This document shows positions 24,672 through 59,900 of a stretch of DNA of 64,000 nt, piece by piece. The stretch comes from Roseimicrobium gellanilyticum (GTDB lineage: Bacteria > Verrucomicrobiota > Verrucomicrobiia > Verrucomicrobiales > Verrucomicrobiaceae). The notes beneath the pieces are model-generated. The model was not told the DNA's origin, searched no databases, and saw nothing but the letters and a program-made list of their open reading frames with translations. The first letter of the stretch is position 1. Every line of letters starts with the position of its first letter. The stretch spans positions 558,001 through 622,000 of the forward strand of contig NZ_QNRR01000001.1 of assembly GCF_003315205.1 (NCBI RefSeq), in the 5' to 3' direction. The position numbers and the translations under genes were made by a program.

Positions 24672-25071
24672 GACGTGGGGAATTAATAATTAACCGCAAA
24701 AGGTAAGCTTTTCTTAAGTTTTTGTCAATACAAAGCCATCCGAAGGGGTGTCTACAGGCCTGCTGCATGCTGGAGTGCGGGATGCACGGGGGCCCAAACA
24801 TGGAAAAATGTTCAATTAAGTGCAGGAAATAACTTGTCCTATTCGTTGGGTTTCGGTTTAAAATCGTCCACAAAATTTGCACATTTTGGGATACTAGAAC
24901 AGTACAGCGTCATAACTTGGTAATCACAGATGCATCAACCGGTCTTGGACTTCGTTGCCCGAGGGAATTTCCCGTCGGGTCTTTCTGCTGTGGTTCCCTG
25001 TGCAAACGCCTCGGCCGCTGAGGTTTCGAGCGACAATTTTTTCACCAACAACCCCCTTCAATCCTGAACCT
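24672..25071. other. AT-rich divergent intergenic region upstream of the first giant gene
   Basis: 400 bp without a gene. On the minus strand a perfect TTGACA (24723-24728 read in reverse), with a weak -10 17 bp away (TACCTT at 24700-24705), could serve the LptA-like gene. For the giant gene no convincing sigma70 pair or sigma54 site was found by eye, and no Shine-Dalgarno precedes its ATG. Confidence 0.4.
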
Positions 25072-49000: not shown

Positions 49001-49053
49001 TATTGGGCGGGTTGCTCCTGCTGCTCTCCGTTCGTCGTCGCCGCAACTGGTAG
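25072..49053 (+). CDS. Giant autotransporter-associated beta-strand repeat protein with PEP-CTERM anchor
   Basis: A 7,993-residue exported protein. ATG 25072 is chosen because a full signal peptide begins there (RTLRRYRAP, hydrophobic core, SPLNA cut near residue 30); the frame is open further upstream to 24955. The body is Gly/Thr/Asn/Ser/Ala-rich and consists of autotransporter-associated repeats of the form LTK.G.G.L.LSG.N.YTG.T.VN.G.L.L; about two dozen clear copies are spread along the protein and imply a very long beta-helix. A PA14-like domain lies at about residues 4897-5038. The C-terminus is a PEP-CTERM signal (PEP from 7969, hydrophobic stretch, RRRRNW), not an autotransporter barrel. 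I noticed no cysteine in the mature protein. By PEP-CTERM/exosortase knowledge it is sorted to the envelope; no exosortase gene is in the window. It lies next to the cassette A-D genes. Confidence 0.9.
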   Translation: MRTLRRYRAPIGGLLILVMAVWQIASPLNAATLVWDVTSANGQVDNGGGTWSAGGAGWTATGGASNTTFTNGDHVIFGGVGTLGTAGSILLGTDVTAASLTFGTVPNPAHPFQYYTIAGGGNDLTISGSGYSATSAAPVGFLANESAAVTSDVVLGSSQNWLAALFESLSVDGVISDGGNVFGIAKDGKGLVSLGNAANTYTGQTSVLNGTLVLTGANSAGAATSTVQVFGNRTTGGGTLMLATGNLQGYTFTRNIVASGPGVATANSITTALNALGLGSVTSVGNNTLTGSLTLTGAFEQRVSSGAGMFTIAGPVTLQAGQENIFYGAGNFNVTGQIQNTSAGIIKTGGSAIASTLILSNNTNAYSGRLRIDSGTVRVSDGGALGTSTAANAIEFNGGGTLEVRADAGTIGTFANKNLSTASNNGTVFVDRAIGGTGLNQVVDFGAFTFGAVAPRTLTLNGRNGYGFSIGTAGVNMAGNGGGNATFTSSSINGKVTIDGDITVGDGTAGKFAVFSTAGDMTFNGSVLSTGAGGSNNFAKQNTGTLFWNSTVASTITGTIRIDQGTLSVSNLANSFGSTVQLQFGSSATSTTVGTLTYTGAGETLSKNINVSGTTGSAVLNASGTGALIVIGTVTAGAAGTKSFFLGGTSTANNEFRGALPAANLANLTKLDGGSWTLSTGAHLNTGPTTIAGGTLRVLANSASGNSTNLADTSNLVFGQDQIGSVLLKGNGWAGGTFVYESGASGTSETLGSLVPSAGAGTIRIVNNSAGTAKLLFSGLGTVAGGSSLNFEAAGTGVNGVNTYLNVTGLAAGFINSHIYYQGTHFAFNDTTQGATNFFWRAPVYGADAGFTTSAAALTAGSHNEITGNVSSGALSINSLRINGAQTLDLTGSLTITNGGIIQTGGAGVIAQSGGGSLTTGGTGDLVVRVAGVSDTLNLAVPILATTTGGLTKNGLGVLVLEGTNLQTGATTINEGTIRLSGTGTLSGANQALVIRQDGVLHLNGVSSGTSVGSFNGAGRVTNTSASNAILTIGNGVTTNGSGGTFSGIIEDGAGGGRLGLTVTTALNTAGQTTTFSLSGVNTYTGPTTIAKTTAGNLVLAVNSLANIGQNSAIGRGDNTSAATNAASLVFNNGILQYTGSSANIFQETQTPSISIDRLFTLAGNGTIQSSGTFGNNILGAGGNNHATLIFNNSANAVAFAGAAGARLLTLGGTSIGDNEMGIQLLDQPGPTAYTLGITKADAGLWILSNTANNYSGATTISGGQLRVTLGAAGVATLSANSNLVFSGGVLETFGTFAQSIGTGAGTFQWGTNGSGGFAASYSKLTVNIGGAGAPVTWGTGGIGNGTGNLILNSTTALAEVEFTNAINLGTAGFNTRLITVNDNSSTNTDYAIISGDISNSVAANANQTALAKDGTGILILTGNNTFQGTGTGGAFNLRNGTLMFSSFANNLGSMADPTGTGRMQIGSGGNSAGLLYIGAGETVTRRIELIGTGGTARIENGGSGAIVITDVINSSTGTKTLNIRGLNPEANEISANLANGAGTLAVTKDDGGFWVLSGNNTYTGGTLVNGGVLGLGSNTAIGTGNLDVRNAVVQAIGGDRVFNNNFVTNNATPIFTGLHSMQFVNGSNVGGNSNFDNYLAKGETLTFTGTFTLAEADQARTVNFRGTGTTILNGSILAGSGTGVDGFTVAMGASTHEGPGMLQINGSAANTATGTVTLSSGILQIGKSGTLTPLGTGNFTMGNGFLQAITDLSGANALTNTFTISNSTGIFQGNQSITFTGVANNTGGNSVIRNNIASGATLTFAGATFTLAEADQTRTLNFEGSGDTVITGNIVSGTGTGVDGLTKAGSGSLTTNGVNTITGNVAVNNGTWNALFNTATTNQLGAGTLTLGGGRLLATKSDAIASSQTWTSATLTGNTASTLSFVTSGGAALNVTTGTITRGAQSTLAFVLPSLGSINVGASPLAIGGGATSWATVGTGSSKTFAIKDGANLVAAATTVTKTNVGTWLLSDNASDDAAGPTGFTGTFTAGGVNTIRFNAPTTSTVTIAQNATLNLSGGGILVTTNVGANAASITGGIITVAPHQLSGNTTNTSTTVRVGNTDGLFVGQVVSGAGIAAGTTIANILDDTTIVLSAAATSTNTATSLSFGSTTSELVIHQDNTAADFTIASAIRNPNRSVSAGIGTAVTKSGLGTVVLSGNNDFFGNLVITEGMVKLGSSTALKGYNSGSGFSVPAVVLANRANAMLDLNGFDASIGNLSGGGLLGDLTQIGGTVNVGTGTLKINQTGNTTYSGALTGTGSIILYGTGSGANTLTLNTSANSYSGTLTISNGQMVLANGTVPNGGTVANLANVPTITIMNGGGLHLNNNASLPVSRLSDTVAILLKNTAPNAAVATVGLSTETDQVFTTNPRIESVGAVTLGAGVNTLRAATGTAGANPILSMASLTRNNASTLVVLANNMDNPIATQRGDVVVRDASNIVANLVGGGSTVNGTSNISILPWAIGQAITGTGAGPQGNTFVTYSTFGGFGYGFRALTTNEYEQLGAAGGVTLTNNARYSASGVNLAFTGTGHQVNSLLVENTSTTTAMTISGSGAGDSLNVNSGAFLFLGAATAPHQAVTINGFNNGISIGTNEYVFHQLNMSGAGVTIANNLTKAGAGVTKSGNGLLVLSGNNTAVTGAIVLNKGLLKINDLDNIGGNTGTILFQGGGLRLAPGFSDDLSGRTIILGDGGVAAVANGTGMLPETYLSGNVIDTFGTSVVINLTNGTATYTLPSVAGLAIGQVVSGPGIAGTVTISNIVGNDVTFSAAPSATTANATVNFGAPVNVTINSALTGPGGLTKVGPGNLVLGGTTANTNGGAIAVTGGELHLNKTVGVDAIGAGGLIIQASSTASVARLLASHQINDAAVVMVMGNNGANSRFDLNNFSETIGGLVMTTNTASGAVVATGANGILTVNGDILLNNNRDAGGDEAQHIVITGSGNTGTRTLDGTLDLGGVVRNIYVTSQASTANQGAINSAGFGGNKPDAIIETVIQNGGINKLGSRVLFLRNANTYDGLTIISEGAIRATHSQALGSTVGGTEIKSGASLQLEGSIAISENITVQGQGAGGYGAIDSIAGYNSLNGTLNMLGDTAFGAEGAAVLVINSLVTGTAQINKVGTGTVFLNNAANNWTGGFTVTSGSLGVGNNTAPLNGNAITILNGGGFAVGWDGTSMLSGGTQESLLFDFSANPISFVGATGSLTVDRLGTTFAPYNLLPTNKTLQINAISFTNPAFALTVNNNGGYGLELTQNFALVTSGGSPTFGVTNATASNVVQGLTMSGVISGGQTGAGTTVFTKVGNGTLVLSNNGNTFGGGSSVIAINQGVLAVATNEALGNISNIIRLAPATGTATFRATSTFSTARTIQFGNTANTRAIEVTKDNVLTLTSAFDVTTFSAQAAALVKNDLGTLVINADNAAWTGALTVNQGAVRAEHSNAFGTSAGGVSIGTIVGQVQLTGGVTIADALNIAGANNQTWSGINSTGALRSMAGTNTWSGLINLTAATSADNQMRAAMISVDAGSILNITGGLRADLATSGTGRDSWFVLAGAGTGNITGTITHTNGAANNAFQLAKIGTGTWNLQAANSFSGHQLFVLQGTLALNGAATLGTPGIGNTATSNNTIFMLPKGTLLLDSTGTNTNNRLSNRNLDFRGGELTILGNSAATTTETTTGTVTLNPGATILTVTAGAGQQANFTTGAVTRNAGSTVLFRGTNLGNAPGADVATIQATGAGYTFVGQAGAAGSTSKAILPWGIVDTSSGGSGISFATADTATGRIRALAASEYVSTLTGATANFENVRLTTLLNATNTAVTQLHSTINSLQLNSGGGLALGDMRQLTLDSGGILALAGNTGISGGLLSTTSNREMIVYTVGDLNIASAITLTSGGLTKSGEGMLTLSSTGNSFTGNINMLQGTLKLSGGDNTIFFNNTLQLQNGTVDLNGTLQHFASLVQSTTAPRNGNLLPNSGGIVTNSQVATQATLAIRTGGSFAGSIQGNIAVMRSTDNAAFADWNLYTANTFTGPLLLNGGRTQLLGEATFSNVSAIELSQSTLLLSNNNGTSIADVNINDRINDAAAIYMRGAMFQYRARFGEVGFEKIGDVTLGVGASAIDVAEPGTALNESTLTINSLTREAGSRATLRFFGVDGQIGSLAQIFITNAPVLDNHIIGGWAVVEREFATYSSATGIAALNATGAIGYAQNTLNTGLTTDNIRITAVGASTLTANRDINSLAIVVSGATNLNLGGFTLTLGSGGLIASNATDNSAITISNGDLTSGDLNVASDLYLHSLGYNNTADVTNRDVLVSARIVNNGTGAVTLVLNADSGRGTGNNTNETVLSGANTYTGGTFVNGGRVQLNTAGANGSTITATGTGNLTITGGTSTNGSTFDERSATVMLMSSNQIHNSAIVTINGGATLNLNGFNQTLGGLVFNNTGGNTPTVSTGTNGILTLNGNVTATSQNIGNAAVSAMTTAGTGFISLGGATRTFDVSAVKFNGKNISPLIATLNISGVMRGTGNEGIIKTGDGLLQLGGASTFTGGVDLQQGGIAIATSSTPSTLGALVTSGPLGTGTFKIGANTYLTSTGGHTLANNLNLNNNLTFRGANSLTFNGNATLTTGGTFTVNVEEANFTAIFNGLINANSDFTLVKDGLGTLRLGNNYNQVSAVTLNQGTLELFGTTFGVTSPVGTAAITMNGGLLSLRNNGGGGTPSGAVISYNNDLILGAGLTDAQLNVNNVSAGTNNIIQMGKLTTTTNNQQISLSSANGYNLRFVGADINTQARFAIQSGTTLTVLLSNVGASQTVTGSGTIVAGGDNYVNTGAGTLVVGVGVKTNTTTDMPGGPINFAAGNNTFIPLAGTFSNAGYTKGGLMVRQTSFAAAQNANSVANSGVGPSAAFVGITPPADTGYNNRPPVGVASTLTNSSITYSGLVEITSGGTYAFRIADDDQAALFIDGVMVLADNINGGGQGLTERNTAYIELSAGYHQIVFVGVNAGGGGGFNLLYSGPDTASNGSPNGFQAIDPNKLYYASNLGNAGNGFLNAARISDTYNLAASQASTLDGQGTHFNLTFGALTMGASSSLTVQNQFGTGYYGVEGVTTIGGSGVTVNPTTGTLYLAGGVNDGAALGLTKTGAGSLYLGTSTNFTGAFNMNAGFTLLAATNALSSGSNVVASGAQLDLYGNSSHGNVTLNGSGVTLLASGTTAALWNSLANSTGTLTGNVTIGAGSTRIGGIGDIVLSGALSDGAALGFTKIGGNTLTLSGNNVGFTGVASISNGILKLGSNTALGTGGSSASNTVISSASAGNGAVLDLNGMNIANEFLSVAGIGFNNRGTSPNTLAAIINSSNTMATWGGNITMTAATSIGSNRLNANSGVATAGDITLTGAVTGAFALTKVGNNTLFITGSGNTYNGMAINGGKVVVSGAGQLGTGGNHSIAGYGQPTGLLPATTLQLDNTGTASNSRLGGRALSIRNGHLIIDGHASTAVNENLGANNLTISLGHNVITLNNNGGSLTLSVNQLIRDGSATLVIRGSENDIGSSDTRLLVTSGTANAIIPVGTENTTLQFTDTDTSGILPWILIDNSILNPGFGAYSMSFARYDSSLGLTNLAVYALELPTTGTVNGTGDVNLAVVTDLTLQNTLSVNDINLQTTGVNSITFNDDPVGATITLEDLQILTLDSGGILALSSGNFAGNGSLNVAGNRQFVIHTIGASTVLNADVEMGGRLAPTQGGLAKTGEGTLILGERNNYTGSTVINLGTLKLDGGDNTLYYQFTVAPVSSTPNSTPQGQVLAVAPGGILDLNGTNQSINLLQGNGGQNVAGAGGIITNTSATASTLRLVVNGNVNWQGSINGNTNVIKSGGSTTIFYDNNAFTGNLLVQGGVFSLQDQGRVSGASSITVSRGILRWDDTGMQQTANRFGTAAITLNGGTLDFRGRGGTNTVMDVGSIHLAGGASYISATPNTGTVTVRMDGLTRTNNSTLTFAASSGTPGANPFFYFDSAPTLTNGIIGGWAYALGTDGLTAGTNIEFATYDTASGVRQLSGAQMVNHFNDPLANVRFNGNTTVKAGGAVINSLTLNGGAVTLSFSAANDVLNITSGGLLGGLDSNVRTIGSVATPGILTAGGVNPTSDVYLYVTNPSNNMVINSIIADNPTNGRKLHLVLGSAGRVDNSARITLGNANTYTGLTYVQGARVDLANLTGSGNAITGDLIIAGGVQDLSDTANPDTQRVYNRGNEQIADTANVTLLGNGAWDVGGYTETINNLIFQSEGGSRNNAGPRVLTGPGTLVVNGSVTATNLINASAVPLIAGHINFGSDNALTVTVDKVAGASNGIHNQIGLAMNVNVIGGGTLTKQGDGMLSLGGHSDTAFQVNVATGDLTLNSTASYRNATINLASGTKLDMRGLTNVVVGNVTGTGTIFNFHVGTAGNLVTGGANTDATFDGLFSSEFTSGMINVTKVGTGTWTLTADNTQHLSGTLSLLDGRILLNGTTARLGFAQQNIATGGVLTLDNSTNVLNFRLGGPIAESSTGIRTAALQIGTTNINYTIPNGDPNPNRNMEFRGGTVNLIGGSTNVMEVLNQVAMTSGAGVLNMTASSAETVFITHNLAGVNNGILYLNAVGSGAILGGTKGAGHVNFAATTPNLLGGGGLAGTKNMSIRPDIIGTDSTGTGFVTHDLDGLRLLTAAEYKTPDTRYLGNANPLRVSTVPGAAPGDNVGTADNVRTNLTHSMDNSTSVNSLTLQSGGGVDSTGGGMLLGTAQGQSAAGRMFNGSGTLNTLTISSGGLLAFAGNTGIQGGVITSASDRRLYITTLGDLTIDSYIIGVGGTAANQGIVKSGAGTLTLGKKTLGIGVLSLQEGTLVLNAGDNTIMVAPTGGTATQLDFNLNGGTLDLNGNDQAFGRITTTSGDTAPNGAGDITNTGALASLYTNTQAGNVTYSGNISGATNVVKTGANTWTLTGTHSYTGATIVRGGTLQLRDDGVLANTSNIELNYGTLLVDNTGWYGQNRLRSGVNMTLRGGTFQFTPRQTQVTSTNMENVGTIDFADGMSRFLFNVTQGSSVTLNATSLARSNGDATWFVNPGIGVLGRGSSDNNDQSPQLILQNAPTLTNGLIGGWAIHNGDNWLVYQAGVHSSGGTGVGAMSDTGAGFITYDEDTGTVANFSAADSIATRNMRLQNNTYQVADIGGTGTAGNFLLNSLNFLTNTNGQTLEFVDSLDTLYLTAGAFLRSGNVTANIGNAVNNGRISAGVVGATGVQHLYMYNNQNVLTINSRIVDNSASAPVRLVLWSANSGRIDLASVNLHTGGTVVNGLTNTTTVQLNIANAVPAGGLTINDTNVITNTSANVVNGVNASNVVTINGGGILNLTTNAVATNTLAGLVFNNSGGTTTPQVIIGLNTSTLILSGTNAITATNENYQTLPTIAVTTAGNLQFSAAAPVITVNNPSGIATHGLQINAVIQTNAGWTQALTKDGNGMLSLTVANTFAQGIVLKDGGIVLGNAGSLGTGKLTIGDGAAGGTHTLMTNGVAALTITNQIDINEDLIIGGTNANSGTNHNLTASGAVALGGGDRVITVESPTVTFTIGGVVSSTGGGLIKDGDGILQLNGANTYTGNTRVKRGLLKQGSGTALAGSHLIVESAGTVDMNGNAMTVKSLSGEDSLHGGVITNSANNTQTLTVGDVLASVDTTFAGIITDARAITATTNSRLNLVKNGNSRQKLTGLNTYGGTTTVNSSTTTLGGGGHLQVGENGIGQTGTGVTRVTAGATLSGSGLINGTPNSTAHVVESGGRISPGDNYGASNGILTFNGNLTLNAGSQSVFQLTSRTTSTTIGGGFVNVATSMSGELATWNSAAVPAGAHDALQINGSLTVTGGNPTPLFLVEDNGYLLNASMGDVFDLLDWTGAALASFNAGTNFRSGGSGGGDLFLPTLVSSNQVWDVSAFASHGFLVVVPEPSRAILLLGGLLLLLSVRRRRNW
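31308..31521 (+). repeat. GI-P-GT module, copy in first giant protein
   Basis: A segment of about 70 residues with the pattern VGQVVSGAGIAAGTTIANI...IVLSAAAT ending in FG. It shares its plan with ten copies in the second giant protein and one at 33342-33536. It lies between ordinary beta-strand repeats. Confidence 0.6.
33342..33536 (+). repeat. GI-P-GT module, second copy in first giant protein
   Basis: Reads LPSVAGLAIGQVVSGPGI...VTISNIVGNDVTFSAAPS and ends in VNFG. It has the same module plan as 31308-31521 and the repeats in the second giant protein. Confidence 0.6.
36420..46960 (+). repeat. Higher-order duplicated units in the first giant protein
   Basis: Two large module types alternate. 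Type 1, with an ILPW.I.D or IRPDIIG core followed by a GGILALAGN-like block, occurs near 36420, 41870 and 45100. Type 2, with a core like IIGGWA followed by FATYD or a similar block, occurs near 37650, 43150 and 46450. Spacing within each pair is about 1.2-1.35 kb. A looser type 1 copy lies near 32570. This indicates ancestral duplication of multi-domain blocks rather than only of single strands. Confidence 0.6.
39760..40185 (+). other. PA14-like domain within the giant protein
   Basis: The translated segment shows the PA14 core: ITYSGLVEITSGGTYAFRI, then DDDQAALFIDGVMV, then an AYIELSAGYHQIVFVGV strand ending in GFNLLYSGPD. PA14 is typically a carbohydrate- or protein-binding beta-barrel inserted in adhesins and glycosidases. 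It is the only non-repeat globular domain I could recognise in the protein. Confidence 0.75.
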
Positions 49054-49304: not shown

Positions 49305-52300
49305 ATGAACACATCGCAACCTCAACTGAAGTCGCGGAACAGCAAAGGGCTGGCGTTGGTCATCGTCGTCTCGATGCTCGCCCTGCTCACGGTACTGACC
49401 ATCGCGATTTTTTCGCTCGCCGAGAATGAGCGGGCCGCATCTGACCAGCACGGTCAGCAGGAGATGGCCAGGGGAATTGCAGACACAGGCATCAATCTGG
49501 TGATGTCCCAAATCTGGCAGGCAACCAAACAAGATGCGACCACTCCTGGTCGTGAAATTTGGGCTTCCCAACCCGGTGCCATCCGCAAGTATCGCGCAGA
49601 TGGTGCCTTTCACTCTGGTTTCAAGCTCTATTCCAGTTCATCAATGGTGGTCGCTGGCAATGAAGAGCAGATGATCAACGACGTTGCTCCCGGGGACTGG
49701 AATTTGATGCCTGCTCGCTATGTGGATCTCAACGACCCAGTGGTTCGTCCCCCCGTTGCCGGCACTTCTGAGCCAATGGTGTACTTCCCCATCATCGACC
49801 CGAGGGCGTATGTACGCGATCGCGATCTTCCCTCCACTGCTCCCGACAATCCCGAAAACCCCAATGTGGAAGGGTTTTGGTACACATCCACCTCGAGGAC
49901 GAATTCGGAAATTTTCGGCGTGAAGATGGCTCAGACGCCGGATGATATCAGCGCCCGGTTGGCCATGCCTGTGGAGTGGGTCTATTTGCTCAAGGATGGC
50001 ACTGTGGGGGCGTTGGATCAAACGAACGCGTTTGTGAAGCCTGATGGCAGTCTCCTGACGGCAGGTGAGGCCGCCACGAACCCCATCGTCGGTCGAATCG
50101 CGTTTTGGGCAGACGATGAGAGCACCAAGCTGAACGTCAACGTGGCCAGCGAACCATCCTACTGGACCACTCCTTCATTCTACCATGACCGTGATATGTG
50201 GTGGGCACATTATCAGCCGACCACCTATGAGTATCAAAGATACCCGGGACATCCGGCCACGATTGCATTGAGCACCGTGTTCTTCCCCAATCGGGAGATG
50301 GATCTTTACGGCAAGGACGTCGGCAGTCAGTCCTATCAGGAGATCCTCGAGCGGAAAGAATCCATCTACCTGATGGCTCCGAAGGTAAACACCGGTGGTT
50401 CCAAAGCCGGAACGATTCCCTACTGGAAATTCGTCGATAACTACGCTGGTTATCAGGACGCCATGTACAAGAAGTGGGTGGACCTGACGGACTCCATCAA
50501 GGAGCGCCTCTATGCTTCTGTTGATGAATTGTACTTCGCGCAGAAGATGGGCACGGGGAATCTCCGCGACGTCAACAGCTTCGTGGACAGTTCGGGCAAG
50601 CCGACGAAGAACTGGATGTTCACCAAGCCGACGGAAAAGTACAGCGCTGACAAGATCAACCTCGAGAGAGCGAGGTTCTTCCTGACTGCGCAAAGCCGGA
50701 TGCCTGAAGTGAACATCTTCGGCACGCCGCGTGTTGCCATCTGGCCCATCGCGGATGAGGGCGGCATTGAATATGAACCTGGCAAGAAGACCGGTGGGGC
50801 CAAGGGCTCTGACTACAGGACCGGTTATGACCAATTGATCGCTTTCTGCGCGTCCATGGGCAAGCCGACAACCAGCGGTCAAGGCGAAAAGAGCTACTTC
50901 TTCCGCCGCAAATGTGCGTACAGCCCAACCGTTGATGTGAATCTGTATCGCAACCAGCGACTGATGGCCTATCTGCGCAATCTCCTGCAGCAGCAGCTGC
51001 CAGGCGGGCTCTCATTTGCCCAGAAGTATCCCAACGACTATGAACAGATCCTCGTTGAGATCTTTGACTACATTCGGATGACGAATCTTTACGATGGATT
51101 CCTCGCCCCAACCAAGGAAGAGCTTCAGAAGGCCAATACCGTTTACGACTTTAACAACGGCAACAGGTATCCAACTGGGACCAACGAAATCGACAACCAC
51201 GGCAGCCTCTATCGCAACCGGCCGACAACTTTCAAGACTTACACGTATGATAGAGGAAGCTCCAGCCAGAGCCGTGGGGGCTCCCTCGATCCCAAGACTG
51301 AACGCATGGTGGAAAACACCTTCCCTGGCCACGGGATGGTCGTGCCTTCAGAATACAACGGGAAAAAGGGATTCGGCCGCTTTGTGACCCTTACCGAGGT
51401 AGGCTTCCAGTTCATCTGCACCGCCGATGGGCAAACGGACAAGGGTAGCTGGACCAACCTTGAACCTGTGCCAGGCGAAACGCTTCCCAACGGCGAGCAG
51501 AAATACAGGAAAGGCACCGTCAATATTGTCCGCAGTGGTGGACGCACGGCGTTGTGGACGAAGCGTGATACCCAAGACCGAATTGGCCCTGGTGATCAGC
51601 TGCCCAACGATGATCAGGACAAGCTCCTGTTCCCGTTTACCGGAGAGACGGGGCAAAGGCAGTTCTGGTACTCGAACTATCCTCCGGTGCCCATTCCTGC
51701 GGTCATGCAGGCCTACTACAAAGTGGATTCTACGAAAGGCACCAAGGATCCCAACAGTCCCTACAATCATCCCGGGTGCAAACCGGAGTACTGGAATGCT
51801 ACGTTGGACCGTGGACTTCCGCCCCTGACAGCGACTGAGAGAAGGGTGCAGGGGATCTTTTTGATGGAGTTCGCTATGATCGCGGCTGGCTACGCGGAGC
51901 TGAACCCCGAATTTACTGTGGTCATCGAAGGTTTGAAGAACACGAAGCTCAACGGCAAGGACCTGTACGACACTTCATCCGTATTTCCCATTACCTGGAA
52001 GTCCGACAACGATGTCTACCATCGGACTGACTGCCGCCCTGTGGGCGGATGCATCAGCGCCGCTGCGATGTCAGTGGGCCGTAGAGCGGCGGTCCACGGG
52101 GAAGCGCTCATCCCTGCGGACCCGGGGTATGACATCAACGCTTCTAGTAGCGGTGATCCCCATCGCGGAACCAAAAACATGGACCTCGTCACCAAATATG
52201 TGACGATCAATATTGGTGCTGGTGAGACGATGCGCTTTACCGGGGCACCCCTTACGATCAAGCTCTACAGCAGCCACAAGACGACGCAGGACAATCTGGT

Positions 52301-54353
52301 GCAGACCTATAACATCAATCTGCCCAGCCAGGACCTTCCGGCGCCGCAGATTGTGACGATGTCCGCAGACCGTTCCTGGCAACAGAGTGGCAATACGGTC
52401 ACCATCAACGATGCTGTGGATGCTCCCCACTGGTGGGCATTCAACTACGCTGGCGCCATCAACCGGTATGTTGGTGGCTGGACTCCTCGCGGATACAATG
52501 TCGCGCCGGGTTCCAATGGCTTTGTTGTGTCCACCAGAGGGCGCTTTTTCAATCAGGGCGGCAACGATCGTTCCTCGGCGCATGGTATTCCGCGTGGCGC
52601 TTCTCTGATGTGGGCCTTCGAGCCTGTCAGTGGCGGTGCCTTCACGCAGAACCTTCTGAATCCGTCTGATCCCGCGGACGACGTGACTACCGACAACTTC
52701 AGTGACACAAAATGGTCCGATACGGAGCCCTTGACTTCCAAGCGTGGTTCTCGCGGTCAGGATACGGTTTTCACCATGGTGCCCAAGCATGGGGACACGA
52801 GACTTCTTGCCGCCATGCCGGTGGTCCCCGCCACCGAGTGGATGGACCATCCGCGTATCGGTGACTTGGGCAAGGTGGTGAAGGCATCCGGTCATACCGT
52901 GGCGTTCAAGCAATATGTGGCGCACAGCATGAGCCGTTACTATTCAAGCTCTGACGCAGGGTTTGATCGCGGTTCTGCCTCCTTGCGTCTGGTGCCGAAC
53001 GCAAACTACAACGCTCGTGCCTACCCTGAGATTGCGGCTCACAAAACTGCGGTGGAGGCGGCTGGCAAGTATGGGGACTTTGACACTGGTGGCTTTGCCT
53101 CGGGATGTCGTGACGGAGCTCTCATCAATAAGCCTGATGAAGGGGACACCAGCATCACCTTCCGCCGGTATGGCCCCAACGATACCCAGACCATTCGTAT
53201 GGTGAATGCCTACCTGGCCACCATTGACTACAGCTGGTTGTACACCAATGCGGGTGAGTCGTTCATGACGCCCAATCGCATCATGCCCTCTCCGGGCATG
53301 TTTGGTTCGCTTTCCACTGGCGTCTATGACGGGGTACCGTGGAAGACCTTGCTCTTCAGGCCGCAAACCCGTGGTTCATTGGCGACTCAATACCTCAATG
53401 ATCACCCGGGTGCCGCCAAGTGGCAGGGTGGAAAGGATCCGGCGGACCATTACATCATGGATCTTTTCTGGATGCCGATCGTGGAGCCCTACGCTGTGAG
53501 CGAGCCCTTCTCCACAGCTGGCAAGGTCAACATCAACTACCAGATTGTGCCGTTCAGCCACATCCGCCGTGCGACTGGCATTCACGCTGTGCTGAAAGGG
53601 GAAATGCTGAAGGCCGTCCCGGTTGCGGATGCGGGAAGTTATAATGTGATGCCGGGCAGCCCGCCTGATCGCAAGCGAGATGAATACACCTACCGGCAGC
53701 CTTGGACGGATCTCACCAAGAACCAGGCATCCAACACGACCATCAAGCGGTGGCACCGGCAGATTGATGTGGAAACGCGTCAAACCTCCACCAATCCTGT
53801 GGTGCTGGGTACGATATCTCAATTCGAGAGCCGCTTTAACTTCAGCCCGCGTTCGGGCGACAAGGATGACGCGACTCCGCCGCCGGCTCTCTGTGGTCTT
53901 TTCAGGTCTGCCAGCCAGATTTGCGAAATACATCTGCTGCCCAAAGTGATTACGGGGGGGGATGGCGCCGACTCCATCGGTAGTGACAAGTCGTACACTG
54001 TGGCAAAAATGAGCAGTGTCTTCTGGGCTACTCGCCGACTCACGGGTGACAACATCCGCGAACGTCCCTATGCGAATATCTACGGAAAGATCACCACACA
54101 GAGCAATACCTACCGTGTGCACTTCAGAGCCCAAGCCTTGAAGAAGGCTCGTTCGACGAAGCAGAACGTTTTCGAGCCGGCTCAAGACGCCGTGCTGACA
54201 GACTACCGTGGCTCGGCGCTCGTTGAGCGGCGCATTGACCCGTCGGACACCCGGATTCCTGACTACGGAGCCGCTGCGAACCCGATCAACCTGCCCCCCC
54301 TGGATGACTTCTACCGGTTCCGTGTGCTTGAGATGAAGCGCTTCATGCCGTGA
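49305..54353 (+). CDS. Verru_Chthon cassette protein A (giant GspK/PilX-like pseudopilin)
   Basis: A 1,682-residue protein with a prepilin-like N-terminus: a basic leader ending in KG at 14-15, then a hydrophobic helix (LALVIVVSMLALL...) without Glu at position +5, then polar helix residues (ENERAASDQHGQQEMARG). The missing Glu5, the RG/KG-x-ALV.V start and an internal DDESTKLNVNV block at about 270 all parallel GspK of type II secretion. The remaining 1,600 residues are a Trp/Tyr/Pro-rich extracytoplasmic region with no other recognised domain. I assign it to the Verru_Chthon cassette family A from memory of that family (first of four genes, beside PEP-CTERM giants). It is followed by gene B in the same operon. 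Confidence 0.85.
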   Translation: MNTSQPQLKSRNSKGLALVIVVSMLALLTVLTIAIFSLAENERAASDQHGQQEMARGIADTGINLVMSQIWQATKQDATTPGREIWASQPGAIRKYRADGAFHSGFKLYSSSSMVVAGNEEQMINDVAPGDWNLMPARYVDLNDPVVRPPVAGTSEPMVYFPIIDPRAYVRDRDLPSTAPDNPENPNVEGFWYTSTSRTNSEIFGVKMAQTPDDISARLAMPVEWVYLLKDGTVGALDQTNAFVKPDGSLLTAGEAATNPIVGRIAFWADDESTKLNVNVASEPSYWTTPSFYHDRDMWWAHYQPTTYEYQRYPGHPATIALSTVFFPNREMDLYGKDVGSQSYQEILERKESIYLMAPKVNTGGSKAGTIPYWKFVDNYAGYQDAMYKKWVDLTDSIKERLYASVDELYFAQKMGTGNLRDVNSFVDSSGKPTKNWMFTKPTEKYSADKINLERARFFLTAQSRMPEVNIFGTPRVAIWPIADEGGIEYEPGKKTGGAKGSDYRTGYDQLIAFCASMGKPTTSGQGEKSYFFRRKCAYSPTVDVNLYRNQRLMAYLRNLLQQQLPGGLSFAQKYPNDYEQILVEIFDYIRMTNLYDGFLAPTKEELQKANTVYDFNNGNRYPTGTNEIDNHGSLYRNRPTTFKTYTYDRGSSSQSRGGSLDPKTERMVENTFPGHGMVVPSEYNGKKGFGRFVTLTEVGFQFICTADGQTDKGSWTNLEPVPGETLPNGEQKYRKGTVNIVRSGGRTALWTKRDTQDRIGPGDQLPNDDQDKLLFPFTGETGQRQFWYSNYPPVPIPAVMQAYYKVDSTKGTKDPNSPYNHPGCKPEYWNATLDRGLPPLTATERRVQGIFLMEFAMIAAGYAELNPEFTVVIEGLKNTKLNGKDLYDTSSVFPITWKSDNDVYHRTDCRPVGGCISAAAMSVGRRAAVHGEALIPADPGYDINASSSGDPHRGTKNMDLVTKYVTINIGAGETMRFTGAPLTIKLYSSHKTTQDNLVQTYNINLPSQDLPAPQIVTMSADRSWQQSGNTVTINDAVDAPHWWAFNYAGAINRYVGGWTPRGYNVAPGSNGFVVSTRGRFFNQGGNDRSSAHGIPRGASLMWAFEPVSGGAFTQNLLNPSDPADDVTTDNFSDTKWSDTEPLTSKRGSRGQDTVFTMVPKHGDTRLLAAMPVVPATEWMDHPRIGDLGKVVKASGHTVAFKQYVAHSMSRYYSSSDAGFDRGSASLRLVPNANYNARAYPEIAAHKTAVEAAGKYGDFDTGGFASGCRDGALINKPDEGDTSITFRRYGPNDTQTIRMVNAYLATIDYSWLYTNAGESFMTPNRIMPSPGMFGSLSTGVYDGVPWKTLLFRPQTRGSLATQYLNDHPGAAKWQGGKDPADHYIMDLFWMPIVEPYAVSEPFSTAGKVNINYQIVPFSHIRRATGIHAVLKGEMLKAVPVADAGSYNVMPGSPPDRKRDEYTYRQPWTDLTKNQASNTTIKRWHRQIDVETRQTSTNPVVLGTISQFESRFNFSPRSGDKDDATPPPALCGLFRSASQICEIHLLPKVITGGDGADSIGSDKSYTVAKMSSVFWATRRLTGDNIRERPYANIYGKITTQSNTYRVHFRAQALKKARSTKQNVFEPAQDAVLTDYRGSALVERRIDPSDTRIPDYGAAANPINLPPLDDFYRFRVLEMKRFMP

Positions 54354-54397
54354 TGCGACGCCTTCCCGGTACTGCACCCGTCTTTGCACTCAAACCC

Positions 54398-54937
54398 ATG
54401 AAAAACTTCCCTTCGATCCGGCGTCCCCAAGGATTCTCACTGCCTGAAGTGGCCATCGCCACGGCGATTGCCGCTTTGGGTATCATCACCCTGCTCGGCT
54501 TGTTGCCGACAGGGCTTGAAAACGTTCGCCAGGCTGGCAACACCGTGGCGATTGCCAGGATTTATCAGCAGATGGTGAATGAAATCCAATCCGCCGACTG
54601 GGGTGAACAGTCGGGTGGCATATGGCAGAACCTGAGGAAGTATGAGAATGCCAGGCGCTACTTTGATTCGGAGGGCACAACCCTGAATCGTTCTGGGAAC
54701 CATACGCTGGGCGATGAAGAGTATCTGGCTCTTTCCTACGTAGCCAAATATGAATTTGTGCCGCTCAACACGGCCCTTGTTCCGGGGGCGGGCATCGTGC
54801 CGGGGGGGATGAATGAACGGGCGGACGCCCGGAGGATCATCATTCACGTCGCGGTCACTCCCACACCGGGTTACGACTTTGATGACGTACGGTCCAAGCA
54901 CGAAAAACGCGCGTTCACCATTACGCGCCAATATTGA
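54398..54937 (+). CDS. Verru_Chthon cassette protein B (GspI/PilV-like prepilin)
   Basis: 179 residues from ATG 54398. The frame is open upstream to ATG 54353 and GTG 54350, which overlap the stop of gene A. A class III prepilin signal is seen: a basic leader (SIRRPQG), cleavage after Gly12, then FSLPE with Glu at +5 and a hydrophobic helix (VAIATAIAALGIITLLG) ending in LLPTGLENVRQA. That last block is typical of PilV/GspI minor pilins. A small C-terminal beta domain follows. Second gene of the cassette operon; prepilin peptidase is encoded elsewhere. Confidence 0.85.
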   Translation: MKNFPSIRRPQGFSLPEVAIATAIAALGIITLLGLLPTGLENVRQAGNTVAIARIYQQMVNEIQSADWGEQSGGIWQNLRKYENARRYFDSEGTTLNRSGNHTLGDEEYLALSYVAKYEFVPLNTALVPGAGIVPGGMNERADARRIIIHVAVTPTPGYDFDDVRSKHEKRAFTITRQY

Positions 54938-54959
54938 ACCAGCTTTTCAAAGGACGACA

Positions 54960-56057
54960 ATGCATATATCACTTGCTTGTAGGGGAAGGGATGGCGGTTC
55001 GAAGCCGAGTCGCCATGGTGGGGCTGCATTTACCCTGGTGGAGCTTCTCGTGTCGATGACGGTTCTTACCGTGCTCCTTTTGCTGGTAACCAGCGTAGTG
55101 GGCAGTGTGCAGGGCGCATGGCATCAGGCGCACTCCAAAGTCTCGGAGTTCCGCGAAGCGAGACGCGCTTTTGATCGGATGGTCAATGCCATCAGTCAGG
55201 CAAGTCTCAATAATTATCTGGTCTACCGATACCCGAACAATGATGACCCATTGACTCCTCCCTCCAAGACTCAAACTGCGCAACCATCGGGCTATGCACG
55301 TTATTCGGAGTTGCAGTTCATTTGTGGCCGTTCTTCTTCCGCAACGGACCCGCCGATGACGGGCCTCCCCCCGGACATCTCGCCGGGGCATGCGATCTTC
55401 TTTCAGGCGCCGATGGGTACTACTTCGGAGTACCGGCTGCCAACCTCGCTGAACGGCTGCGGATTCTTCGTGCAGTTTGGGTCTGACAGGGACTATCGGC
55501 CTGACTTCCTGAACAACATCGGCCAGGCAGAAGTGTACCGCTACAGGCTGTACGAATACCGAGCCCCTACGGAGAACAATCGGGCTTATGATCCCGACAG
55601 CAATGCCAGCGGAAGGCGTTGGTATGAAGACTTTGCCCAGTGGAGCAAACCTATCGCCAACAATGTGGTTCTGCTGGTGCTGTCTCCCCGGCGCTCTCAA
55701 GCGGACAAGGATGGTCTCTCCCCGGTAACTGACATCGCGCCTTTCTATACCTACAACACGAGGCCGAAAGACCCCATGTCCACCACTGTGCAGGACCCCA
55801 GTGAATATCAGTTGCCTCCCATGGTAGCGGTTACCTTTGTGGTTGTAGACGAGGCATCAGCCACGAACATGTCCATCGACAACGGGACCTCACCACCTTT
55901 GAGGGATGTTCTTAACACAGGCCTGTTCCAGCGGGCGGAAACCTACCACACCGATTTGGATCTCGTGGTGAAGGGGCTGGTGGACAAGAAAATCAACTTC
56001 CGGGTCTTCACCGCTACCGTTCCCATTCGCGCATCGAAATGGGGGCAAGGTACCTAG
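54960..56057 (+). CDS. Verru_Chthon cassette protein C (GspJ/PilW-like prepilin)
   Basis: 365 residues from ATG 54960, which has a good Shine-Dalgarno (AAAGGA) 5 nt upstream; the longer frame from 54813 overlaps gene B and is rejected. The prepilin signal is GGAA then FTLVE with Glu at +5, a hydrophobic helix (LLVSMTVLTVLLLLVTSVV) and a REARRAFDRMVNAISQA segment as in GspJ/PilW. Residue -1 is Ala rather than Gly, which may slow peptidase processing. The globular part is beta-rich (AVTFVVVDEAS, FTATVPIRASKW). Confidence 0.85.
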   Translation: MHISLACRGRDGGSKPSRHGGAAFTLVELLVSMTVLTVLLLLVTSVVGSVQGAWHQAHSKVSEFREARRAFDRMVNAISQASLNNYLVYRYPNNDDPLTPPSKTQTAQPSGYARYSELQFICGRSSSATDPPMTGLPPDISPGHAIFFQAPMGTTSEYRLPTSLNGCGFFVQFGSDRDYRPDFLNNIGQAEVYRYRLYEYRAPTENNRAYDPDSNASGRRWYEDFAQWSKPIANNVVLLVLSPRRSQADKDGLSPVTDIAPFYTYNTRPKDPMSTTVQDPSEYQLPPMVAVTFVVVDEASATNMSIDNGTSPPLRDVLNTGLFQRAETYHTDLDLVVKGLVDKKINFRVFTATVPIRASKWGQGT

Positions 56058-56074
56058 CCACCTTCAAATCCACC

Positions 56075-56821
56075 ATGAAAGCAGCTTCGTCTCAGAACGC
56101 CCCGAGCTCCGGCAGTCGCGCCGGGGCTTTCACGCTTATCGAGCTTTTGATCGTCATTACGGTCATTGCAATCCTCATTGCGGTGGCGGCACCCACCATT
56201 TTGGGCAGTGTTGGCGCCAGCCGGCTCACCTCCGGCGGTGAGACCTTGGTTGGCCTTTTTTCCGAGGCCCAAAGTCGGGCAAACAGCAACAATCGACCAG
56301 TGGAGGTGCGTCTCTATCGGGTGCCCAGCGAAGAAGATGCCCTCAACGGAGCCTCCGCGGAAGGATTTTACCGTGGGGTAGTTTTCACGGAATACTATCA
56401 GACTGGAGAGTTGGACCCCCGTGCGGCTACTCAAAAGGCCTATACGCAGCTCATGAGGCCTCTTGCCGTTGTCCGCAAGGCCATGCACCTTCTGCCTGGC
56501 GGAACAGCCATCTCCGAAGATGTGCAAATGTCGACACTGATCGGGAATCGTCCTGATTCCTTGGATGGAGACGGGCAGACTGTGGATGCGGTGCTACGTG
56601 TGGGTGATAAGTACATTCCCTTCACTCCGCCTGCCTCGAAATACAGGTCGTTTGTGTTTTATCCTGAAGGGACAGACCTCGATGAGGCCGCAAAATGGTA
56701 TCTGACAGTCACCTCGACAGAGAATGCCGAGAAAGCCCCGACGGAGGTTAGAAACTTCTATACTATCCAGGTGGATGCGCTGACCGGCCGATTGAGCAGC
56801 TATCGGCCCTCTATTCAGTGA
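56075..56821 (+). CDS. Verru_Chthon cassette protein D (GspH/FimT-like prepilin)
   Basis: 248 residues from ATG 56075. The prepilin signal is SRAGA then FTLIE with Glu at +5 and a helix (LLIVITVIAILIAVAAPTIL). Next is the FimT/GspH hallmark segment in which a helix with SEAQSRANSNNRPVEVRLYR leads into the beta domain. Again Ala occupies position -1. It is the last cassette gene, 17 nt after gene C. The end of the gene is 84 bp before the second giant gene. Confidence 0.85.
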   Translation: MKAASSQNAPSSGSRAGAFTLIELLIVITVIAILIAVAAPTILGSVGASRLTSGGETLVGLFSEAQSRANSNNRPVEVRLYRVPSEEDALNGASAEGFYRGVVFTEYYQTGELDPRAATQKAYTQLMRPLAVVRKAMHLLPGGTAISEDVQMSTLIGNRPDSLDGDGQTVDAVLRVGDKYIPFTPPASKYRSFVFYPEGTDLDEAAKWYLTVTSTENAEKAPTEVRNFYTIQVDALTGRLSSYRPSIQ

Positions 56822-56831
56822 TAAAGGGTTG

Positions 56832-56857
56832 ATTCGATCGTTGGAACACGATTGAAT
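56832..56857. promoter_or_regulatory. Hairpin/inverted repeat upstream of the second giant gene
   Basis: Arms of 10 bp (56832-56841 and 56848-56857) match at 9 positions with a 6-nt loop. It sits in the 84-bp gap between cassette gene D and the second giant gene. No T tract follows, so it is more likely regulatory than a terminator. Confidence 0.35.
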
Positions 56858-56905
56858 TATCTAGAACTAAGATTGTCGAAATTCGCCGTAAGACCAGGTC
56901 CCCCC

Positions 56906-59900
56906 ATGCACGCAAGATCCAACACCTGCTCCCCCACAGGATTGTTGAACGGACGTCGCCATGCGTTTTCCGCTTCAATTCCTCTCCTCCTAAAGATTGC
57001 TTCATTGGCTGGAGTTCTGTTCGCTGCGGGAACGGCAGGTCATGCGCAGTCCTTCACCACCTCGTGGACCCCGACCACTTCCGGACTCTGGAGCACGGGC
57101 ACCAACTGGAACAACGGGGTGCCGAATTCCCCGAATGCGCAGGTCACGATCCTGTCCAACATCACAGCGACGACCAACATCACGCTGGACATTGCGGCCA
57201 CTCTCGACCGGTTGACGATTGGGGATTCGAGCAACTCGTTTGTGATCTTGCCGAGCGCGCCCGGATCGACCCTTACATTTGCGAACAACGAGGCGCCCGG
57301 CGATGGCGTTGATACCAGAATCAACAAGACCGTTGGTGGGACTGACATCATTGCGGCAGGCATCTTGAACACCGAGCGGCTGGTGCTGAATGTCACCACT
57401 GGAACCCTGGCGCTCTCTGGACCAGTCACCATCTCCACGGAAGTCCTGGAAAAGATTGGTGGGGGCACCGTGGACATTCGCGGCCAGCTCAACCTGCATA
57501 ACCACAATGTTATCACTGCGACGGGGAACAAAGGCCTGCTCGTCACGGCAGGAACCCTGAATCTCTCGTCCCCGTCGAACGCCATTGCCAATACCGTCAA
57601 GGTCACCGGTGGCACGCTGAACTTCAGCGGCCGCGCTGCTTCTCAAGTGGTTTCCGCCACGGTTTCTTCCGGTAACAGCCTTACCTTGACGAACGTTGCC
57701 GGGTTGAGCACGGGGATGGCCATTTCAGGAGCGAACATCCCGGTGGGCACGTATATCACCGGGATCAGCGGGACCACCATCACGCTCAGCAATCCCGTCT
57801 CCGGGAATGTCACTGCAAATGATCGCCTGGTGTTTGGCGGTCCCTCGGTGGGTGCCGCCCTCGCCACGGGCTCCGGTAATTCGATCACCTTGAATTCGAC
57901 AGCCGGTATCTCGATCGGCATGAACGTCCATGGTGCCAACATTCCCGCCGGCACGACCGTGATAGGAGTTTCCGGTAATACGGTGACTTTGAGCAATCCG
58001 GTATCGGGTGGGGGAGTGGGTGCAAACCAGGTGCTGAACTTTGGTGCTCGCCTCGGGGATCCTGTGGCAAACGCCACCGCTCACGCCACGGTGGCGACAG
58101 CTGCTGGGGGGAACACAGTGACTCTTAGTGACGTTTCCCAACTGACTGTCGATATGCTGGTTACTGGCCCCGGAATTCCGGCCAACACGACCATCACCGC
58201 CATTAACACGCTGACGAAGACTATTACCCTTAGCGCGCCCCTTCCTGCAGGAACGTCACTTGCCGAGCTTTCTCAACTCTACTTCGGCACAGGCCAGACC
58301 ACATTCGCTTCGGGTCTTGGCGAATTGGTTGTCACCGGTGGCGCAGTCAACATCGGCACCGCAGGGAATGCGGTGAACTTCATGATCGACGCAGATCAGA
58401 TTGAGATCACCGGTGGTACCTTGACCCTCCAGGCGGGCAACGGTGGGGGTGTCACCACGGTGCTAGGGGGAGCCACCAATCTTCTTACCCTGAATGGCGG
58501 TACGCTGAATGTCCTCTCCAGCGGCACTGCTTCGGGCACGGTGAACTTTGCCAGTGCTATCGATTTGGTGCTGAACAACAACGCGATATTCAACTTCTCT
58601 GACAACGTGGGGACCATTCAGACTTTCGCGTTCGGGTCAGTGAACTCCACCAGCAACAACACCTCCCTTGTCAGCAGCGTGGGGAATGCGGTTTTGCAGA
58701 TCGGAGGCGACGGCGTTAATGATGTCTTCAACGGAACGGTCAACATGGGCGGCTCCGGAGGTAATTCACGGATTGTCAAAGTTGGCACCGAGACCCTGAC
58801 CTTGGGGGGGACGCTGGATAACAGCACTGCGCGAGTGGAAGTGCGGGAAGGAACCTTGATCCTGGCCAAAGCCAGTTCACCTACCGTGCATGCGATTGGC
58901 AGTGGCGGCACACTCATCGTCGGCGTCGCCGGTGGAGGTGTGGAAACTGCGCAGATTGGGGATCTCAGCAGCTATGTGGGCTTGGGGAATACCCACATGA
59001 CGAACTATACAAATCAGATCCATCGTGGAGCCACCTTGACTGTGAATTCCACGGGGGTTTTTGATTTGAATGGTTTTAGTGAGGCCCTCAACGTCATCGC
59101 GGGAGCCGGGGTCATCACCAATAACAAGTTGGGGACGACTTCGACCATCCTGATTGGACAGAATAACACGGAATTCACCTGGTCGGGTATTATCCAGGAT
59201 GGTAACGGGCAGATGGCGGTGTGGAAAGCCAGTTCCACCAACACGTATTTCGAAAACAATCAGACTTACACCGGGGAAACCTTGGTGGGGCGCTCGAGCT
59301 TGGTGCTTCGAGGAGCGAATGGCAGGGTCAGTGGCACCAGCACCATTCGCGTGTCCACCAACGGGCAACTTGCTCTCTTGAACAACACGGCCACGGATGG
59401 TTCTGGGAACAACAACGATCGTGTCAATGACTCCGCGAGGATCTACTTGGACAAGGGAGGATTGCTGTTGATTCGTCGTGCAGCCAATAACGGCACGACC
59501 GTGCATACCATCGAAAAGATGGGGGTGTTGCAAATCGGCGCAGGATTCAGCCAGGTGCGGACGGACCACACCGATGGCACAGGTGGCAATAACAACGTGA
59601 ACCTGTCGAGCGCCATTGAGTATGTGTTCGCTGACTATGAACGCGACCAGGGTGGGATCGTCGGATTTACAGAAATCGCAAGTGATGGCACGAATGGCCC
59701 CGCCGTTGGCTTCAGCCTGACCAACGGAGCTACGGCGCTTTCAAGGGTGAAGTTTGAGAGCGGAGTTTCCCCCGGTTCGATGGCTCTACTGGCAGGCAAC
59801 TCCAACACGGCGGATGCTGGAGATGCTGACTTTAAAGTTCTCATCGGCGCTTACGGTGGCACGCACAACCAAGCTTATGATCGCTTGGTGACGGTGGGCG

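Follow-up and report, generated by a model that had tools for sequence, protein, structure and literature searches.

Verru_Chthon cassettes A-D as candidate exchangeable pseudopilus tips for giant repeat proteins in Roseimicrobium gellanilyticum and related bacteria

The proteins GspH, GspI, GspJ and GspK form the tip of the pseudopilus in the type II secretion system (T2SS), and substrate choice by this system is a long-standing question. It is likewise an open question how giant proteins with PATR (autotransporter-associated beta-strand) repeats and PEP-CTERM ends, which have no barrel, reach the cell surface; the authors who described PEP-CTERM stated that experiments are needed to settle the localisation of such proteins (PMC1569441). 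The four protein families Verru_Chthon A-D (TIGR02600, TIGR02598, TIGR02599 and TIGR02596) are catalogued in NCBIfam with descriptions that state no function. Interchangeable tips and multiple minor-pilin sets have already been reported for the Kil pili (PMC12075869) and the type IVa pili of Myxococcus xanthus (PMC7541494), respectively. Here, one Verru_Chthon cassette was analyzed in a 64,000-nucleotide stretch of Roseimicrobium gellanilyticum (GCF_003315205.1, contig NZ_QNRR01000001.1, positions 558,001 to 622,000; hereafter the window), which is part of contig C1 of the 7.93 Mb genome. The cassette sits between two open reading frames (ORFs) of 8,032 and 3,622 amino acids (aa) with PATR repeats, and we assign a probability of roughly 0.57 to the reading that A-D represent exchangeable, cargo-specific pseudopilus tips that recruit such giants for export.

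The cassette comprises four consecutive prepilin-like genes on the plus strand at 49305-56821 of the window, and each adjacent gene codes for a protein above the curated NCBIfam cut-off of its family. The oversized GspK-type protein A (49305..54353, 1682 aa), whose closest named loci are from Verrucomicrobium sp., reached 912.6 bits (cut-off 332.3), the GspI/PilV-type protein B (54350..54937, 195 aa) 80.3 bits (51.4), the GspJ-type protein C 303.8 bits (256.5) and the GspH/FimT-type protein D (56039..56821, 260 aa) 88.9 bits (70). The first GTG start of the B frame overlaps the stop codon of A by 4 nt, with an alternative ATG at 54398, and the C frame (54813-56057, 414 aa) likely starts at codon 50, giving a gene at 54960..56057. 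Prepilin cleavage sites are predicted at G15|LALVI in A, G28|FSLPE in B, A72|FTLVE in C and A30|FTLIE in D. None of the 78 A proteins had Glu5 (54 were checked by script and 24 by eye), whereas every one of the 47 B, 63 C and 40 D proteins had it; a prepilin signal with Glu5 in the H, I and J types and none in the K type is the signal pattern of T2SS minor pseudopilins. These 78 A loci were taken from the top of a ranking by resemblance to the A protein of the window (the best 80 of 357 confirmed matches) and are hence a biased sample. The sequence-only reading of this locus had listed four consecutive prepilin-like genes of the Verru_Chthon A-D families, an A without Glu5 but with a DDESTKLNVN block, and a B with FSLPE; all these features were recovered, the block at residues 270-279 of A.

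None of the curated cut-offs for GspK, GspI, GspJ or GspH was reached by the window's four proteins in the profile scan. A matched GspK weakly (NF037980, 18.4 bits, cut-off 130), B matched XpsI with 20.1 bits (cut-off 150), C matched GspJ with 15.8 bits (64.85) and D matched GspH with 29.6 bits (E 6e-7, cut-off 80). Among family members at E<=0.1, GspK was matched by 6 of 11 A proteins; XpsI, GspI and PilV by 38, 28 and 26 of 47 B proteins; GspJ, ComGF and ComGE by 61, 56 and 54 of 63 C proteins; and GspH by 39 of 40 D proteins, with ComGD equally frequent and the Pfam GspH model in 13. The family alignments combined the window's protein with 62 of 67 A proteins from complete L-loci (alignment A2; L023, L026, L027, L037 and L049 were thinned out) and, in alignments A3, A4 and A5, with 62 of 65, 46 of 55 and 39 of 62 proteins. 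Because no Gsp cut-off was reached and the matched stretch, where displayed, was mostly the N-terminal helix common to all pilins, the predicted folds were tested. The model of the window's own C protein (63 sequences, pLDDT 89.0) matched EpsJ (3cfi_B, Z 11.1), GspJ (3ci0_J, Z 10.8) and XcpW (5vtm_W, Z 10.8), with all EpsJ/GspJ/XcpW rows spanning Z 9.5-11.1; the type IV-like pilin TTHA1219 (5g23) tied at Z 11.0, and the first unrelated row stood at 3.5. The A fold was obtained on the short family member L088 (1,198 aa, 63 sequences, pLDDT 82.8, pTM 0.86) in place of the window's own A, and VIA re-alignment placed this model on E. coli GspK (3ci0_K) with Z 10.3 and an rmsd of 3.4 for 260 of 280 residues. 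The alignment runs from model residue 29 to 1198, and the next row had Z 4.7. The identity as a minor-pseudopilin tip (A as K, B as I, C as J, D as H) is well supported by the profiles for all four proteins and the predicted folds of A and C. The K-I-J-H set proposed from the sequence stood to this extent, and the GspJ-like nature of C agreed with both profile matches and fold (Z ~11); the confinement of the GspK-like part to the first 350 residues of A did not hold, as the fold is discontinuous over the whole L088 model.

The genome's own canonical-size GspK (318 aa, GspK score 82.8 bits, cut-off 130) displays a helix at 17 followed by the blocks EESRLHINS at 97, NRKLRTVEE at 167, GQLDLNEA at 202 and LLTVKGSTTRI at 269, and similar blocks occur in the window's A at 15, 270, 401, 1405 and 1597. 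If these blocks are equivalent, A would have ~170 more residues before block two and ~1,000 extra residues between blocks three and four. The putative insert (residues ~410-1404, 50532..53516, plus strand), with no counterpart in canonical GspK, falls between the RLYASVDE block at 401 and the second KxNxN block at 1405, a site which we take, from the GspK structure, to be the alpha-domain. The GspK fold apparently spans the whole of A, with ~1,000 residues inserted. The collinear motif order may serve as an argument, not as a statistic: in the hhalign comparison of canonical GspK and A the N-terminal helix alone was significant (P 8e-6), with P 0.1 for the SVDE match and 0.37 for the TTRSNT match. 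The blocks are variable across the family, as strict patterns recovered both KxNxN blocks in 25, RLYASVDE in 38 and TTxSNT in 42 of the 78 A rows. For residues ~505-790 of the A model, the structural matches did not go beyond weak beta-sandwich rows (Z <5), and no fold is therefore assigned to the insert. The length of A is 1,237-1,841 aa in complete genome-contig loci and ~905-1,023 aa in a few loci of the genomes G337 and G341. Two loci (L086, L091) have two tandem A genes before B-C-D.

The absence of Glu5 is a feature that A shares with the pilin PilX, and the Pfam scan of A gave no match except a weak one to PilX_N (E 0.37; the giants were scanned in part, for the PilY1 C-terminal domain). 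Both would suit a tip-borne adhesin, where the giant would remain attached to A on the end of a type IV pilus or pseudopilus, as has been proposed for PilY1 on PilX in type IVa pili, and the cassettes would provide alternative adhesive or sensing tips. In M. xanthus, three clusters, each of four minor pilins plus one PilY1, belong to one machine, and the authors suggest that PilY1 is analogous to T2SS substrates (PMC7541494); moreover, several ATPases of the GspE/PilB family are encoded in the present genome. We regard the adhesin as unlikely, given that A aligns with GspK in the re-alignment of the L088 model and that the PEP-CTERM on many partner giants suggests anchoring at the membrane or by an exosortase and not at the tip.

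The genome harbors 11 complete cassettes, each with its four genes grouped on the same strand, eight in the order A-B-C-D and three in the order B-C-D-A, and the A paralogues share 31-44% identity with the A of the window. The window has no match to PF00437 or PF00263, and gsp-type core genes are located elsewhere, on contigs C5, C20 and C22. C22 carries an ATPase, an inner-membrane protein and prepilins best matching GspE, GspF, GspG, GspH and GspI, followed by one further prepilin at the GspJ position, and C5 carries GspK, two genes at the GspL and GspM positions and a GspD-like secretin; among these T2SS-type genes GspG alone passes its cut-off. Three prepilins, a second GspK and a secretin are found on C20, which has no PF00437 match. 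One PF06750 match indicates a prepilin peptidase. A GspK relative was detected in 59 of 59 family genomes, including those without a cassette over the cut-off, hence the cassettes are additional to T2SS tip sets. Since family genomes carry from one to many cassettes (11 here) besides T2SS-type sets, the tips might be swappable on shared pseudopilus machinery.

The proximity of cassettes and giants is not restricted to the window. In this genome, 5 of 11 cassettes have a PATR ORF on the same strand within 1 kb, making six contacts, all same-strand. At least 26 PATR ORFs were counted by hand (150 of 373 candidates scored), which gives a random-position expectation of 0.66% per cassette and P ~5e-9 for the five cassettes, or 4e-6 if 100 PATR ORFs are assumed; the clustering of surface genes is not part of this model. 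PATR neighbours were called with a hidden Markov model (HMM) for which 26 repeats from the R. gellanilyticum genome served as input. The complete genome G337 of the same genus showed the same-strand arrangement within 1 kb for 5 of 7 A genes, and G341 for 10 of the 18 A genes that were scored there out of 38 candidates (L192 contains at least one more A). Three further A genes of G341 have a divergent PATR ORF and no B, C or D within 5 kb, raising the count to 13 of 18, and five have none. Taken together, the three genomes hold 20 of 36 A genes with a same-strand PATR ORF within 1 kb, or 23 of 36 regardless of strand. Among the genome-contig loci a giant lies directly upstream in 34 of the 69 that extend at least 1 kb in this direction and directly downstream in 5 of 61, always on the same strand. 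Loci from G354, G349, G078, G350 and G346, for which the presence of PATR on the contig was one of the selection criteria, had a same-strand PATR ORF within 1 kb in 3 of 15 cases (L205, L209, L213). Canonical GspK loci showed no PATR ORF in 30 loci, each ~3.9 kb and hence a weak control.

The gene order is variable, comprising giant-ABCD, ABCD-giant, B-giant-ACD, BCDA-giant, giant-BCDA, DBCA-giant and giant-DBCA. Proximity that is kept while the order changes would fit a functional partnership rather than the inheritance of one fixed order. The three divergent A genes of G341 (L190, L191, L193) stand opposite PATR/PEP-CTERM genes that code for proteins of 1,541-1,599 aa; A alone may therefore be the partner-specific part. 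A conserved 485-aa gene downstream of many cassettes was rejected as a partner, because it reads as the IMP dehydrogenase GuaB, and its recurrence shows that these loci are orthologous. At guaB-linked A-B-C-D loci the upstream giant reaches 11,633 and 12,188 aa.

In some relatives the giant is nested in the cassette. In all nine genomes where the start of the giant could be read (G186, G300, G299, G189, G297, G301, G311, G302 and G198), the giant is immediately preceded by B and immediately followed by A, with giants of 5,620-7,756 aa and B-to-giant gaps of -4 to 82 bp if the first start codon of the ORF is taken as the reference. The sample consisted of 11 genomes chosen for a long A ORF; in the remaining two, G335 and G313, the giant extends off the contig. 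Genes C and D come after A in G186, G300 and G299, where they were read, and in the sufficiently long L-loci of one A clade (11 rows, support 100) in which B had seemed absent. The idea that this clade lost B along with the PEP-CTERM on its giant was rejected because all nine assessable genomes have B on the upstream side of the giant. Nested-type giants (L064, L040, L051 and similar; L126) end in a recurrent G-x-G-Y/F-F ... S-G/N-x-V-x-F motif in place of PEP-CTERM, which may represent a different sorting or anchoring signal, and Ig domains were found in the one C-terminal end scanned. Mutually similar proteins of ~1,140 aa are encoded upstream of the giant, B or A in G336, G308, G299, G301 and L024. 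The link to flanking giants anticipated by the sequence-only reading is stronger than it could appear there and takes the form of recurrent, tight and mostly same-strand neighbours, including the nested giant in every assessable relative.

Giant 1 (24955..49053, plus strand) probably starts at ATG 25072 with a signal-peptide-like N-terminus, contains 22 PATR domains according to our own HMM and bears a C-terminal PEP-CTERM (TIGR02595, 23.4 bits, cut-off 16). Giant 2 (56852..64000, plus strand) has PATR repeats and continues beyond the window, which covers the first 2,383 of its 3,622 codons; its C-terminus ends VPEPSRAMLFVIGFAGMLLRRRRPTRK, which we read as a PEP-CTERM. An autotransporter barrel was detected neither in the C-terminal 684 aa of giant 1 nor in the C-terminal 1,239 aa of giant 2, and together with the signal-peptide-like start of giant 1 this would mean that the giants need an outer-membrane route. 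The result also bears on the view that they are autotransporter-like, crossing the outer membrane unaided and sharing only regulation with the cassette. The Pfam name of PATR refers to autotransporter passengers, and in Akkermansia some proteins of the outer membrane carry an autotransporter barrel (PMC4960237); this view is already weakened by the missing barrels and appears very improbable. A match to the EpsH/exosortase family was observed ~13 kb left of the window (G000:C1:544309-544971, 98 bits, TIGR02602 cut-off 105.55) and a second, weaker one on C2, also below the cut-off. In G346, the genome of L088, contig C57 has PATR-repeat open frames of 18,544 and 16,801 aa, with no cassette among the matches listed there.

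Several observations weigh against the reading of the cassettes as tips for giants. Regarding identity, B and D are assigned as GspI-type and GspH-type from profile matches, and Foldseek by itself gave no match at E<=0.001 for the A model (its top rows were C2, alpha-hemolysin and other unrelated chains), so that the A fold match comes from one aligner. Regarding the machine, other GspE/PilB-family ATPases and secretins occur in the genome, so that the T2SS is one candidate for the partner machine. Regarding linkage, 6 of the 11 cassettes lack a PATR giant at a distance of up to 1 kb (C2_758 adjoins only a PEP-CTERM ORF on the opposite strand and five have neither), many of the 34 loci with an upstream giant are orthologous, with guaB downstream, and are therefore not independent, and 20 of the 26 counted PATR ORFs lie away from cassettes, which implies that a cassette is not needed in cis. 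In the family, cassettes over the cut-off were found in 56 of 61 genomes and PATR in 61 of 61, and this co-occurrence says little. Among 18 other, distant cassette-bearing genomes, mostly of unstated completeness, six had no PATR match; common cassettes without giant repeat proteins, which the sequence-only reading had named as evidence against itself, were thus found in part, namely in distant lineages. A constant pairing of cassettes with PATR giants was rejected on the 6 of 11 cassettes and the 6 of 18 genomes. Studies in other bacteria point in the same direction. Transposon mutants of Pseudomonas aeruginosa in xcpX (GspK) and xcpU (GspH) still secreted on plates while xcpV and xcpW mutants did not (PMC6211770), hence GspK is not an obligatory receptor there. 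The PEP-CTERM proteins of Akkermansia muciniphila were more intracellular than outer-membrane (PMC4960237).

The cassettes without a PATR neighbour, the genomes without PATR matches and the PATR ORFs without an adjacent cassette would all suit a general T2SS or type IV pilus accessory with other cargo, near which giants lie since lineage-specific surface genes cluster. Such an accessory seems to us rather improbable, somewhat more so than the tip adhesin, as the linkage is far above the random-position expectation (which leaves surface-gene clustering aside), the contacts are mostly same-strand, and in nine genomes the giant sits inside the operon, between B and A, starting -4 to 82 bp after B. 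From the unlinked PATR ORFs and the genomes without PATR it rather follows that the cassettes have other partners too, or that the giants are one cargo class. Across the phylum, at least 156 of 288 genomes match A at E<=0.001 and 8 of 288 pass the cut-off. Large proteins (~700-1,400 aa) that match Verru_Chthon A, and often GspK, over their first ~60 residues are present in many of the 288 genomes, at least 148 of which have a match below the cut-off. In a coarse look at six loci from G251, G177, G125 and G045 (L111-L116), no B, C or D was seen among the longest-ORF picks.

Under the proposed tip function, A-D would form a self-contained K-I-J-H minor-pseudopilin tip complex, the GspK subunit of which would have gained ~1,000 residues in its alpha-domain. 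The enlarged A would act as a cargo-specific receptor, its insert binding the partner in the periplasm, which for many cassettes would be the adjacent Sec-exported PATR giant, and growth of a T2SS pseudopilus would push this cargo through a secretin to the surface. There, exosortase processing of the PEP-CTERM, or another C-terminal module, would anchor the giant. A more specific version, namely that the enlarged GspK of each cassette is the receptor for one partner surface protein and gives giant beta-strand proteins a dedicated outer-membrane route, is tentative and in our view falls somewhat short of even odds. The same caution applies to its scope, i.e. partners of up to ~12,000 residues, sometimes encoded inside the tip operon, in the Verrucomicrobiaceae with 11 tips here. 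If giants do have their own pseudopilin tips, deletions of single cassettes could put the export route to the test, and a set of tips that differ in their receptor domains would make a natural series for studying T2SS substrate choice. Furthermore, the four catalogued families gain a hypothesis on their function.

In the accessible parts of the literature on Verrucomicrobia pseudopilin cassettes, repeat giants and PEP-CTERM, no mention of the family name and no description of this system, its fold assignment or its PATR link was found. All four proteins of the window agree with the Verru_Chthon A-D families in exceeding their cut-offs, and the fold assignment and the PATR link are added here to the NCBIfam descriptions. 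The PEP-CTERM/EpsH system (PMC1569441) shares the PEP-CTERM with giant 1, whereas the available part of its description names no outer-membrane route. The Kil Tad pili (PMC12075869) resemble the cassettes in their interchangeable minor-pilin tips that expose variable domains, but they are a Tad system for prey killing and work, as far as described in that part, without giant cargo. Closer are the M. xanthus PilY1 clusters 1-3 (PMC7541494), with several minor-pilin sets per machine, each with a large partner gene, and a PilX without Glu5; they differ in that the partner is PilY1 and not a PATR giant, and the pilins are FimU, PilV, PilW and PilX. The T2SS tip GspH-I-J-K (3ci0, 5vtm, 3cfi) corresponds in the four subunit types, the Glu5 pattern and the predicted folds of A and C. 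Unlike this tip with its GspK of ~320 aa, the cassettes have an enlarged A, form operons apart from the gsp core genes and occur in many copies per genome, often with a giant in or beside the operon.

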